Shown here piece after piece: positions 30,718 through 36,477 of a stretch of DNA of 64,000 nt; the first letter of the stretch is position 1; each line of letters begins with the position of its first letter. The notes below the pieces were generated by a model that ran no database searches, was not told the DNA's origin, and worked only from the letters and a program-made list of their open reading frames with translations. Made by a program: the position numbers and the translations under genes. This DNA is from Burkholderiales bacterium (lineage in GTDB: Bacteria; Pseudomonadota; Gammaproteobacteria; Burkholderiales; Burkholderiaceae_C), in NCBI GenBank assembly GCA_028864885.1, contig JAGWLR010000001.1, positions 62,001 to 126,000 of the forward strand, read 5' to 3'.

Positions 30718-31536
30718 ATGCTGATCCACCCTCATTTCAATCCGATCGCCGTGACCTTGGGGCCCTTGAAGGTTCATTGGTACGGGCTCATGTACCTCGT
30801 CGGTTTTGTTGCGTTTTATTTCTTAGCCAATCGGCGAGCGCAACGTGCGCCATTTGTCGGCGCAGGATGGGATCGACAGAAGGTCGAGGACCTCCTGTTT
30901 GTGGGTGTCCTTGGCGTTGTCTTGGGTGGTCGGCTCGGGTACGTCTTGTTCTACAAGCCCGACTACTATATTGATCACCTGACCGAGATCTTCGCTGTCT
31001 GGCAGGGTGGCATGTCCTTCCATGGTGGCTTTCTGGGTGTCATCGCCGCCATGTACCTCTATGGCCGCCGTCAGGGCATGCACTTCTTTGAGGTCGCCGA
31101 TCTGGTGGCGCCTTGCGTGCCAGTCGGATTGGCTGCGGGCCGCATCGGTAACTTCATCAACGGTGAGCTATGGGGGCGCGCAGCAGATCCCTCATTGCCA
31201 TGGGCCATGATCTTTCCCGAGTCGGGGTCCAATCTTCCACGGCATCCCTCGCAGTTGTACGAGTTTGGGCTGGAAGGTGTCTTGCTGTTTACGGTGCTGT
31301 GGATTTATGGCCGCAAGCCACGGCCTTTGGGGGCGGTTTCGGGCCTTTTCATGCTGGGATACGGTCTGATGCGGTTCACGGCCGAGTATTTCCGTGAGCC
31401 AGACAGCTTCCTTGGCTTGCTTGCACTGAACATGAGCATGGGCCAGTGGCTGTGTGTGCCCATGATCGTTTTAGGTGCGTTGCTCTTTATCCTGGCAAAA
31501 AAAGACGCCTTCCAACCCAAAGGTCGGAAGGCGTGA
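30718..31536 (+). CDS. lgt: Prolipoprotein diacylglyceryl transferase
   Basis: [46 protein letters not shown]. Confidence 0.96.
31497..31534 (-). terminator. Intrinsic terminator on the minus strand for the nrt-type operon, lying within the 3' end of lgt
   Basis: Minus strand ACGCCTTCC-GACCTTTGGGTT-GGAAGGCGT-CTTTTTTT. Confidence 0.75.
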
Positions 31537-31643
31537 AGAGGTCTGTGGAGCTTTCGCTGACCCACTGACCCCCGCTGAGGAAGACCGCCCGGCTCTGGCG
31601 ATTCGGACGGTCCATCTCACTCAAGCAAGGGGTGTGCCAGCGA

Positions 31644-33542
31644 TCAGTGCTGTCGGCCGCAATCTTCCAGGAAGCCGATGAGTTCTTCGCGCAACTCGTA
31701 ATAGCGGGCGTGTTCGACGAGTGCCTCGCGGCTGCGTGGACGCTCAAGTGGCACGTCCATGATCTTGCCGATCTTGGCGCGTGGGCCATTGCTCATCATG
31801 ACGACGCGGTCGGCCAGCAAAATGGCCTCGTCTACATCGTGGGTCACCATGACGGCCGTGACCTGGTTGCGTGCCCAGACCTCCATCAGCACCTCTTGCA
31901 GATCCCACCGGGTGAGTGAATCCAGCATCCCGAAGGGTTCGTCGAGCAGCAGCAGCTTGGGTTGCAAGGCAAAGGCTCGCGCGATGCCTACGCGCTGTTT
32001 CATGCCGTTGGACATCTCGGATGCGAGCTTGTGCATGCCTGAGCCCAGGCCGACCCGGTTGAGGTAATAGGCGGCCGTATCGCGGCGTTCAGCCTTGGAT
32101 GCGTGTGGGAAAACACGCTCCACCCCCAGCATCACGTTTTCATAGGCGGTTAACCAGGGCACCAAGCTGGGTGACTGGAATACCAATCCACGGTCGGGCC
32201 CTGCGCCCCGGATTTCCTTCCCATCGAGGATGATCACACCCTCAGTGATGTCGGTCAGGCCGGCAATCATGGACAGCACGGTGGACTTGCCGCAACCTGA
32301 GTGGCCGATCAGGGAGATGAATTCGCCCTTGCGCATCTTCATGTCAAAGCCATCCACCACGGTCTGGGGCCCCTTGGGCGTGGGGTAGACCTTGATGACC
32401 TTGGAGAAGTCCACATAGCTGTCATCGCTGATTTTGCGCGCGTCTGCGATGGCCAGATCGTCTGCCTGCTTGGGGATCAGGTAGGTGTCGACCAGTTCTT
32501 GTTCGATGGTTTCGGCCAGGGCGGCGTGCCGCATGCCAAGCAGTGAGGCCATGGTTGGCCGCCGCCCCTTGCCAGTCTCCTCGGGGGTCAAACTCGGTAG
32601 AACAATCTGCTGGCTGGTGTTGCCTGCGTCACGCTGGTGCGCCATGCCAATCAGATGCTGAGTGATTTCGCCGCGCAGATGCTGAAAGGTGGCGTCGTGG
32701 TTCATCGCTCGGCGATCACGGGGACGGGGGATGTCCACCTTGAAGGACGGACCCAGCGCGGCACGAGGGCCCACCTGCAAGGGGATGATGCGATCAGCCA
32801 CCATCAGGGCTTCGTCCACGTCATTGGTGATGAGCAAAACGGTTTTCTTGTCATCGCTCCAGATGCGAACGATCTCCTCCTGAAGCGTGGCGCGGGTCAG
32901 CGCATCCAGAGCAGACAAGGGCTCATCAAGCAGCAACACATCAGGGTTGGTGGCCAGGGCACGGGCAACGGACACACGTTGGCGCATGCCGCCCGATAGC
33001 TGCGCGGGCTTCTTGTCAATGGCTGCCGACAGGCCGACCATGGCCACGTACTTCTTGACTCGTTCCGCGCGCTGGGCAGAGGATTCGCTAGAAAACACGC
33101 GGTCGACAGCCAGAGCCACGTTCTCGCGCACCGTCAGCCAGGGCATCAACGAGTAGCTCTGGAACACGATGCCACGATCGGGGCCGGGCCCCGTGATGGG
33201 TTTGCCGTTCTTGAGCACTTCGCCGCTGTCGGGTTGAGACAGGCCAGCCAAGAGGTTGATCAAGGTGGTTTTGCCGCTGCCTGAGAAGCCCACGATGGCC
33301 ACGAACTCGCCCTGTTCGATGGTCAAGTTGATGTTGTGAAGGACTTCTGAGCGGCCGCTGCCTTGCCCGAAGCCCTTGCACACGCCACGCAACTCGAGGG
33401 CTGCGGTTTGGCTTGCACTCTGCGGTTGAATGGGGGCCTCTTTCCGGGGCTCAACGTGCACCATCGACATGGCTTCGGTGCTTGTGGATACCGGCACGTT
33501 GCCGTGCATCGGTAGAGCCATTTTCATGCTGGAGGTCGTCAT
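31644..33542 (-). CDS. Nitrate/nitrite-type ABC transporter, fused double ATP-binding protein
   Basis: Two ABC ATPase modules: Walker [11 protein letters not shown] and [10 protein letters not shown]; signatures [15 protein letters not shown] and [15 protein letters not shown]. Confidence 0.9.
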
Positions 33543-33555
33543 GAGTTGCCTCGTT

Positions 33556-34566
33556 TCATCGACGCGTGATCAGGTTTTGGAACACAAGCATCAAGCGATC
33601 CAGGGCAAAGCCGATCAGACCGATCGTGAACACCGCCACCATGATGCGGCTCAGCGATTCCGAGCTGCCGTTCTGAAACTCATCCCAAACGAATTTACCC
33701 AGGCCAGGGTTCTGCGCCAGCATCTCAGCGGCGATCAACACCATCCAGCCCACGCCCAGCGACAAGCGCATCCCTGTGAAGATGTAGGGCAGAGCGGAGG
33801 GCAGGATGATCTTGCGGATTCGTGTGCCCAGAGGCAATTGCAGCACCTTGCCGACGTTGACGAGATCCTTGTCCACCGAATTCACGCCCACCGCAGTGTT
33901 GAGCAACGTGGTCCACAGTGAACACAGGGTCACGGTGATGGCCGAGATCAAGAACGATTTCTCGAACATGGGCTTGCCCGTGGTGACATACACGGCGCTG
34001 ACAATCAGGGTCACGATGGGCAGCCAAGCCAGCGGTGAAACCGGTCGGAAGACCTGCACCAATGGGTTGATTGCCGACTGAAACAATGGCGAGGCGCCGG
34101 CCATGATTCCGAGCGGCACGGCCACGAGGGTAGCCAGTAAAAAGCCAACGAATACAGTCTTCAGGCTGGTCAGGATTTGATCCAGGTATGTGGCCTTGCC
34201 CGTCCATTCAAAATGACGGGGTTGGTAATTAGGGTCTTCCGCCAAACGCTCCTGGTTGCGCTTGTCCTGGCGTTCATAGAATGCGGCGCGCTTTTGGCGC
34301 TCGGCGATGTGGTCCTTCACCAGCAGCACGGCTTGGTTGAACACCTCGGTGGGGCCGGGAACCGCACCCAGTGAGGTCTGGATGCGGGAGGCCGAGAACG
34401 ACCACAGCATGAGGAAGACCACGAAGGCGATGACCGGCACGCCAACCGAAGTCAGGAAGGCGCGAGCCAGTTCACGTGGATGGCCACCACCTACGAGTTT
34501 GAGGACTTGTTCCATATCAGTTTCCTTTTCCAGCCAGCCTTGTGAGCCGGCCGGATACGCCAACAA
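33556..34566 (-). CDS. ntrB: Nitrate-type ABC transporter permease (NrtB-like)
   Basis: Binding-protein-dependent permease with TM segments, [39 protein letters not shown]. Confidence 0.88.
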
Positions 34567-34593
34567 CGCCGGGCCAGACTTGGCCCAGTCGGG

Positions 34594-35967
34594 TTACACC
34601 TTGTCTTTTGCCTTCAAGCCAATCTTGAGTTGCTCCAGATAGGCATTGGGTTTGCGCCCGTCGTAGGTCATGCCGTCGATGAACCCACCTTGCGCCCCCT
34701 TGAAGCCATCGGTCACGGGGAAATCGCTGGCCTTGGCTTTGCCTTCTGCAATCAGGGCCTTGGCAGCTTGCATATAGACGTTGGGACGGTAGACCTCCTT
34801 GGCCGTGTTCATATACCAGCTGTCGGGCTTCGATTCCGTGATCTGACCCCAGCGACGCATCTGGGTGAGGAACCAGATGGCATCGCTGTAAAACGGGTAA
34901 GTGGCGAAATTGCGGAAGAACACGTTGAAGTCCGGCATAGGGCGCTTGTCTCCCTTCTCGTATTCAAAGGTTCCCGTCATGCTGTTGCCAATCACGGCAG
35001 CATCGGCGCCAACGTAGTTGGGCTGAGACAGAATCTTGACCGCCTCAATGCGATTGGCCATCGATGCGTCCAGCCACATGCACGCCCGAATCAATGCTTT
35101 GACCACGGCGACGTGGGTGTTGGGGTTCTTGTCGGCCCATGCCTTGGAAACACCGAATACCTTCTCTGGCTTGTTCTTCCAGATTTCGAGGTTGGTGACG
35201 ACAGGGACGCCGATTCCCTTGAACACAGCCTGTTGGTTCCAAGGCTCGCCAACGCAATAGCCGTTGATCGTGCCTGCTTCGAGTGTGGCGGGCATCTGTG
35301 GGGGCGGGGTGACCGACAACAGCACGTCAGCCTTGCTTGTGCCTGTGATGTCAGTCGATGTGTAGAAGCCTGGGTTCAGGCCGCCGGCTGCCAGCCAATA
35401 GCGCAACTCGTAGTTGTGTGTCGAAACAGGGAAGACCATGCCCATCTTGAAGGGCTTGCCCTGCGACTTCCACTTGTCCACGACCTTCTTCAGGGCGTCA
35501 GCCTTGATCGGGTGCACCACTTTTCCACCTTCCTTTGGAAGGTAAGGTTTCATCTCGTTCCATACGGCGTTTGACACAGTGATGCCATTCCCGTTGAGGT
35601 CCATGCAAAAGGCCGTGACGATATCGGCCTTGGTCCCGAAGCCAATGGTTGCGCCCAGTGGTTGGCCTGCCAGCATGTGGGCACCATCCAGTTGCCCGTC
35701 GATCACTCGATCCAGCAAAACCTTCCAGTTGGCTTGCGCTTCAAGGGTGACGTTGAGACCTTCGTCCTCGAAGAATTGCTTCTCATAAGCGATGACCAGC
35801 GGTGCGCAATCGGTCAGCTTGATGAAGCCAAACTTCAAGCTTTCCTTTTCCGGCGCGGTGCCCTTGGCCATGGACAAGCCGGGCAGACCCATGGCTGCGG
35901 TGCCGACCAGGGCGCCTGCTCCAGCAAGAAACTGGCGGCGTTGGTCGCGTCGAGATTGTGATGACAT
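34594..35967 (-). CDS. CmpA/NrtA-family ABC transporter substrate-binding protein, Tat signal
   Basis: [25 protein letters not shown] twin-Arg leader; [30 protein letters not shown]. Confidence 0.9.
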
Positions 35968-36201
35968 GAAGAATCTCCTTTTCGGTGCGAGCGTGTTGGA
36001 AGAGGGATGCGATGGTTTTGGTTTTGTCGCCTTGTTCACACGGCGACCGAAAGGTCATCTGCGTGAGTGGAGAACTTGTCTGCTTAGTCAGCGGGGGAGT
36101 GAGCCATTTCACGTCACGCCGTCAATGGGCGTGACTGTGCGCAAGGCTCGTGCGGTGAGGGGTGGCAGTTCATGGTTGGTAATGGGGCAGAGTGGTTTCG
36201 G

Positions 36202-36269
36202 AAAACAAAAAAGGTGCCTGCGTCAACTGAATGCACCGAGTCAGGCCTTCAGTTGACGGAGACACCTTT
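36202..36269 (-). terminator. Leader intrinsic terminator upstream of the nrtA-like gene
   Basis: Minus strand AAAGGTGTCTCCGTCAACTGAA ... TTCAGTTGACGCAGGCACCTTTTTTGTTTTC. Confidence 0.88.
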
Positions 36270-36333
36270 GTCTTGATCCCGAGGAGCGACGTCCTTGCCA
36301 TTTCCCGGGGACGACACCGCCGTTGGCGTCGTC
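36260..36333 (-). promoter_or_regulatory. Candidate ANTAR-target two-hairpin antitermination element (P1 36310-36333, P2 36260-36273)
   Basis: P1: GACGACGCC-[AACGGC]-GGTGTCGTC (9 bp incl. one G-U). P2: AGAC-[AAAGGT]-GTCT. Both hexaloops have A1/G4, and P2 overlaps the 5' arm of the terminator. Confidence 0.7.
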
Positions 36334-36344
36334 ACAGAATCAAA

Positions 36345-36360
36345 AGCAAACGCTGTGCCA
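36345..36360 (-). promoter_or_regulatory. Sigma54 (-24/-12) promoter of the nrt-type operon
   Basis: Minus strand TGGCAC-AGCGT-TTGCT; predicted +1 near 36334, adjacent to P1. Confidence 0.75.
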
Positions 36361-36477
36361 GACTTTTTGAGTCGCGATGGTGCATGGCCTCGCGGCGAGT
36401 TCGCGGCGAGTTTTTGCGGCGAGCAAACCTCGGGTGGGGCAAGAGTCGTCCCTGTGGCGTCCGTCTACACTTGCGGC

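Follow-up and report, generated by a model that had tools for sequence, protein, structure and literature searches.

A probable three-hairpin ANTAR antitermination leader of a nitrate/nitrite-type ABC operon in a Burkholderiales genome

The nitrate/nitrite-type ABC operon in the window, i.e., the whole analysed stretch of 64,000 nucleotides of a Burkholderiales genome, is very probably preceded by a 5′ leader that acts through nitrate-responsive ANTAR antitermination, belongs to a three-hairpin subclass and has NasR as its likely reader, all taken as one joint reading. This kind of switch is already known; the new aspects are the three-hairpin variant, the re-identification of an Rfam motif and the missing nasT gene.

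In the proposed mechanism, sigma-54 RNA polymerase, presumably activated by NtrC, would start just upstream of the first hairpin (P1) under nitrogen limitation. By default, the RNA would fold into the terminator and transcription would halt before nrtA. In the presence of nitrate or nitrite, a dimeric ANTAR protein would bind two hexaloop hairpins with A at loop position 1 and G at position 4 (A1/G4), one of them being P2; with P2 held closed, the 5′ arm of the terminator would be removed and the polymerase could read through. The middle hairpin would be the partner of P2 at normal ANTAR spacing, while the strong P1 might be an additional or alternative site. With the nasT gene that adjoins this leader in genus mates lost here, the NIT-ANTAR protein NasR, encoded beside nirBD, would be the likely regulator.

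Promoter, hairpins and terminator of the leader

The features of the leader and of the operon behind it are collected in Table 1.

Table 1. Coordinates of the leader, the transporter genes and a neighbouring candidate small RNA within the window.
Feature	Position	Strand	Evidence or remark
Sigma-54 promoter CTGGCACAGCGTTTGC (−24/−12)	36346–36361	minus	in 56/56 genuine family leaders; equals 5′ block of narK consensus
P1 GACGACGCC-AACGGC-GGUGUCGUC	36310–36333	minus	9 bp, A1/G4 hexaloop, closing C-G; stem covariation in relatives
P1–P2 linker, imperfect helix CCCGGGA../UCC-CGGG	36276–36309	minus	fold
Middle (third) hairpin UGGC-AAGGAC-GUCG	36287–36300	minus	A1/G4 hexaloop, closing C-G, tip of linker helix; fold and relatives
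P2 AGAC-AAAGGU-GUCU	36260–36273	minus	4 bp, A1/G4 hexaloop, closing C-G; sequence and relatives
Intrinsic terminator, long stem and U6 tail	~36205–36274	minus	fold
nrtA-like substrate-binding protein (NMT1_2)	34594–35967	minus	Shine-Dalgarno AAGGAG before ATG 35967
ntrB-like permease	33556–34566	minus	follows the nrtA-like gene
Fused double ATPase, ntrCD-like	31644–33542	minus	TIGR01184, 610 bits
Candidate sigma-54-dependent small RNA	31495–31640	minus	right after ntrCD
Promoter of candidate small RNA, TGGCACACCCCTTGC	31625–31639		

The first-pass annotation had described P1, P2 and a terminator with a U-rich tail, and all of these elements are present: both hairpins lie exactly where it had put them, with six-nucleotide A1/G4 loops and, in addition, a closing C-G pair in each. 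Absent from it were the sigma-54 promoter, the match to Rfam narK, the third hairpin and any mention that nasT had been lost from this locus. The predicted mutual exclusion of P2 and the terminator also holds, in that the terminator 5′ arm takes in the P2 loop and the P2 3′ arm. Folding of the whole leader (36195–36345) gave −67.5 kcal/mol, whereas shuffles averaged −46.2 (z −5.3; 0 of 200 shuffles as low), and the main source of this stability is the terminator, which alone reached −36.8 compared with −17.4 in shuffles (z −6.8). Without the terminator, the segment of P1, linker and P2 has an ordinary folding energy relative to shuffles (z −1.07), and the case for P1 and P2 therefore rests on comparison.

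The motif TGGCACRN4TTGC occurs twice in the window against 0.2 occurrences expected. A sigma-70-like site was sought at the leader and none was found, the sole strong promoter there being the sigma-54 site just upstream of P1, which would place the RNA 5′ end just before P1. Pairing of A1 with U6 is possible within the P2 loop AAAGGU; this pair forms in the single-strand fold, which leaves an AAGG tetraloop. At the outer pair of P2, the window has A-U, most relatives have G-C and the genus mates have a C/A mismatch, so that this pair appears to have been kept or restored; the form CGAC-AAAGGU-GUCA is common to the genus mates, Aquabacterium soli and a second Aquabacterium genome.

Published ANTAR elements comprise two hairpins, each of at least 3 bp and with A1/G4 hexaloops, of which P2 overlaps a terminator (Ramesh et al. 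2012, PMC3369931). Hairpins of this kind are bound by ANTAR dimers, with the result that the terminator is suppressed, and in the case of NasR this happens in the presence of nitrate or nitrite (PMC3369931, PMC7496416); for NasR, a closing C-G was preferred in SELEX and a two-hairpin RNA was bound in a nitrate-dependent manner (PMC7496416). The window likewise has stems of at least 3 bp, A1/G4 loops, closing C-G pairs and terminator overlap; P1 covaries in relatives, and an ANTAR protein is encoded in the genome.

The narK motif, the relatives and the third hairpin

An Rfam scan matched the narK RNA (RF03032) at 36286–36359 with 45.1 bits, compared with a gathering cut-off of 43.2; other matches in the leader (a miRNA and P11) were discarded with scores far under cut-off. 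The narK consensus opens with GGCaCAgcucUUGCU, which is a sigma-54 −24/−12 promoter and not RNA, its sole annotated hairpin has the loop AACGGC of P1, and its end CGACAAAGACGUCG can be read as an unannotated 4-bp hairpin with the A1/G4 loop AAAGAC. On this reading of the consensus, the narK RNA would consist of a sigma-54 promoter, an ANTAR P1 and a P2. In the window, the 3′ end of the Rfam alignment falls on the middle hairpin, not on P2; this hairpin was rejected as the true P2, as the terminator-overlapping hairpin in relatives corresponds to 36260–36273. The search of the openly accessible literature found no paper naming the narK motif. RF03032 would gain a concrete and testable function: with most of the motif read as sigma-54 promoter and ANTAR target, its model could be built anew and used to annotate many more leaders.

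The name of this Rfam entry could suggest a ligand-binding riboswitch that senses nitrate or another metabolite directly, and the narK score was indeed passed for a family listed in the Rfam output merely as cis-regulatory. Such a riboswitch is scarcely credible, considering that the consensus has one annotated hairpin and its other conserved parts are the promoter and an A1/G4 hexaloop, that the sequence between the hairpins is not conserved across leaders, and that leaders were found only alongside ANTAR proteins in a family sample of 201 genomes.

In this family sample, a search with the narK model returned 60 matches in 55 genomes, which were then inspected; 56 are genuine leaders and four were rejected as false (G144 L041, G082 L045, G185 L046 and G046 L048). 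The model is a weak detector, four of its 60 matches being false, and it exceeded its cut-off in only 1 of the 201 genomes; two leader-pattern matches in named genomes (L141 and L165) exceed it as well. All 56 genuine leaders have TGGCAY-N7-GC. Nearly every one shows a P1 with an A1/G4 hexaloop, at about 36 nt from TGG or shifted, G093 being a leader without a clear A1/G4 P1. In every leader, GGAC-AAMGGC-GUCC or a sequence close to it runs into the terminator. P2, which the first-pass annotation had regarded as the weakest part of its case, is indeed only 4 bp long yet is the most conserved element of the leader, with GGAC-AAMGGC-GUCC in nearly all relatives. Position 1 of the P2 loop is G in six long leaders (G084, G097, G169, G198, G053 and, judged by eye, G104). 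In two loci of these genomes (L033 in G097 and L058 in G198), the P2 loop is GAUGGC, and an overlapping A1/G4 hairpin, CAUCG-AAAGGA-CGAUG or CGUCG-ACAGGA-CGAUG, could substitute for P2. Of the 45 hexaloop hairpins with 6 bp or more in the family leaders, 44 are A1/G4.

The family leaders are linked to ANTAR genes: for 46 of the 56, an ANTAR gene in the same orientation is found 32–235 nt upstream. Moreover, leaders occur in 52 of 161 ANTAR-positive but in 0 of 40 ANTAR-negative family genomes (p = 1.5e-6, with related genomes not independent). Three genomes, G023 (L042), G151 (L044) and G149 (L049), have two leaders per nasR-linked cluster, 3–4 kb apart, which suggests small regulons.

Named genomes scanned with a promoter–P1–P2 pattern yielded at least 120 loci. 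The matches listed include Burkholderiales, Rhodocyclales, Pseudomonas, Methylobacter, Azospirillum and the enterobacteria Kosakonia and Buttiauxella, and in Kosakonia the same DNA pattern picks out the leader adjoining nasR. Two further matches (L157 and L183) are in MAGs assigned to Verrucomicrobiales and Sumerlaeota and are possibly mis-binned or due to chance. Covariation was counted in 102 distinct sequences among the named-genome matches listed, with the arms anchored on the loop motif alone because a MAFFT alignment of P1–P2 shifted P1 by three columns. In this set, P1 pairs 2–5 are standard in 84–94% of sequences, compared with 45–51% when the 3′ arms are shuffled, and each of these pairs occurs as six pair types. 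P2 was judged on its outer pair, as the inner three pairs were preset by the search pattern; this outer pair is standard in 86% of the same sequences compared with 76% after shuffling. The A1/G4 loops and the P1 covariation accordingly hold in relatives, as would be expected from the original proposal of an ANTAR leader.

Conservation also bears on the idea that the terminated leader acts in its own right as a sigma-54-dependent small RNA, nrtA regulation being secondary. Stopping at the terminator would yield a stable RNA of about 130 nt with a high degree of structure; however, conservation centres on the ANTAR loop positions and the P2/terminator overlap, and the place before transport genes, together with the ANTAR gene linkage, is what antitermination predicts, so that a small RNA is very unlikely to be the main product.

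Returning to the antitermination leader, 23 leaders of the family sample, that of the window included, are long, i.e., they have a long promoter-to-P2 distance. An extra A1/G4 hexaloop of at least 4 bp is present in 12 of these 23, again including the window, while dinucleotide shuffles of the same stretches gave a mean of 0.66 and a maximum of 4 (1000 runs). Among the named-genome matches listed, 24 of 58 long leaders carry an extra A1/G4 hairpin, and the three-hairpin leaders listed come from Janthinobacterium, Massilia, Collimonas, Rhodoferax, Limnohabitans, Methylobacter and others. In the window, the hexaloops lie 36, 64 and 91 nt after TGG, and the linkers are 36 nt between P1 and P2, 9 nt between P1 and the middle hairpin and 13 nt between the middle hairpin and P2. 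In the eut leaders of E. faecalis, native linkers are 5–12 nt long, and a linker of 14 nt was enough to impair induction (PMC3369931), while 2–25 nt were allowed in curated ANTAR RNAs (PMC8164766). The P1–P2 linker exceeds the 2–25 nt range and the two shorter linkers fit it; the middle hairpin would therefore restore normal ANTAR spacing by splitting 36 nt into 9 + 13 nt. With its two G-U pairs, the middle hairpin of the window is weak alone, but it sits on top of a longer imperfect helix. Its counterpart is GCCC-AAUGAC-GGGC in genus mate G160, and in genus mate G034 the loop starts with G, not A.

Judged by its sequence, the window leader is a member of a three-hairpin ANTAR subclass. No mention of a third ANTAR hairpin was found in the openly accessible literature, by which its absence is not proven. 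The three-hairpin form raises the question of how an ANTAR dimer picks its two hairpins, as current models have exactly two.

NasR, the missing nasT and the operon

Two ANTAR proteins were found in the window's genome. NasR is a 457-aa NIT-ANTAR protein on contig C122, between nirD-like and nirC-like genes, with NIT at 169 bits and ANTAR at 73.5 bits, and its best PDB match is the nitrate regulatory protein 4akk (E 7e-44). The first-pass annotation had supposed a NasR/NasT-like protein encoded elsewhere and had named nasT, nasR and nasS as genes to look for; a NasR-like NIT-ANTAR protein is indeed encoded in the genome, while neither a NasT nor a NasS could be recognised in this 194-contig draft (completeness 99.99%), where a gap could hide nasT. 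A REC-ANTAR protein on contig C34 was rejected as NasT, being divergent and marginal (27.4 bits) and adjoining a histidine kinase, and the small ANTAR protein of G034 was rejected as AmiR-like. As well, a second NMT1_2 protein was rejected as NasS, the sole other NMT1_2 protein belonging to a different ABC operon.

The gene order in genus mate G160 is tsaD, nasT, leader, nrtA, and nasT is also directly upstream of the leader in two Aquabacterium loci (L164 and L172, A. soli and the second genome). Together with the P2 form that these two genomes share with the genus mates, this hints, short of proof, that the window comes from Aquabacterium. Genus mate G034, like the window, has tsaD right next to the leader, and nasT is missing from the locus in both. 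Among the named-genome matches listed, position 3 of the P2 loop is C in 30 of 32 nasR-adjacent leaders and A in 20 of 29 nasT-adjacent leaders (p 4e-7, kinship ignored). The window loop AAAGGU is the NasT-linked form, and NasR may therefore read the window P2 poorly.

It is conceivable from these observations that the leader was built for NasT and has been unread since the adjacent nasT was lost, persisting as a relic that terminates most transcripts. The position of nasT in G160 and both Aquabacterium loci, its absence beside the leader in the window and G034, the NasT-linked loop and the missing NasT and NasS agree with such an orphan, but the leader retains an intact promoter, P1, P2 and terminator, the A-U outer pair of P2 has been kept or restored, NasR is encoded in the genome, and intact transporter genes in a permanently shut operon would be unexpected; the orphan leader is thus considered unlikely. 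The preferred reading is that NasR, as the sole nitrate-related ANTAR protein in the genome, is the likely regulator after nasT loss and would now serve a NasT-type leader, the P2 loop form being the specific weakness of this proposal. Since nasT was lost naturally beside a kept leader, the locus lends itself to testing whether targets of NasR and NasT can stand in for one another.

Alternatively, the nirBD-linked NasR may serve its own sigma-54 leader at nirB. Upstream of nirB in the window's genome (L225, contig C166), there is a separate sigma-54 site with the hairpin UCCGCU-AACGAC-GGCGG, which has an A1/G4 hexaloop and a U-G closing pair, is followed by a terminator-like stem and is conserved in G160 (L208:3709–3920). 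This hairpin is a possible NasR target of another type; a scan of the nirBD–nasR regions for standard leaders found none.

A wider joint reading, in which a three-hexaloop class of beta- and gammaproteobacteria has neighbouring loops about 20–30 nt apart, P2 functions as a pair with the middle hairpin, the first hairpin is a separate site (for two ANTAR dimers or stepwise loading) and the leader was handed from NasT to the NIT-ANTAR protein NasR after nasT loss, is offered tentatively and is rather doubtful as a whole.

The transporter at 31644–36039 is of a type unlike that which the genus mates carry at this site beside tsaD (here with fused ntrCD), and its NrtA is closest to those of L114 and L009. 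The operon was therefore probably replaced behind the leader, or together with it. In addition, the candidate small RNA right after ntrCD (Table 1) is about 125 nt long and comprises three strong hairpins followed by a terminator (z −6.4). It is kept in G160 (85%) and Aquabacterium soli (80%), with compensatory changes at six pairs among the three sequences, was not found in the other family genomes sampled and matches no Rfam family.

Comparison with known systems

The closest parallels are found in nitrate assimilation. The nasF leader of Klebsiella oxytoca, read by the NIT-ANTAR protein NasR, resembles the window in its A1/G4 hexaloops, closing C-G pairs, P2–terminator overlap, nitrate assimilation operon and NIT-ANTAR protein (PMC3369931, PMC7496416). 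Compared with nasF, the window has three hexaloops and a 36-nt P1–P2 linker, its nasR lies away from the operon, and this operon is an nrtA/ntrB/ntrCD transporter. For the NasS–NasT system of Paracoccus denitrificans and Bradyrhizobium diazoefficiens, in which NasT is a REC-ANTAR protein, nitrate-dependent antitermination by NasT has been published (PMC3795266, PMC6759348); the likeness lies in nasT being directly upstream of the leader in genus mate G160, whereas the window's genome has no recognisable nasT or nasS. Rfam RF03032 shares with the window leader the promoter, P1 and a P2-like loop in its consensus, but counts the promoter as RNA and annotates P1 alone. Finally, the EutV-controlled eut leaders of Enterococcus faecalis likewise have dual A1/G4 hexaloops and a P2 that is mutually exclusive with the terminator, but they respond to ethanolamine/AdoCbl and have two hairpins with a linker of 5–12 nt (PMC3369931).
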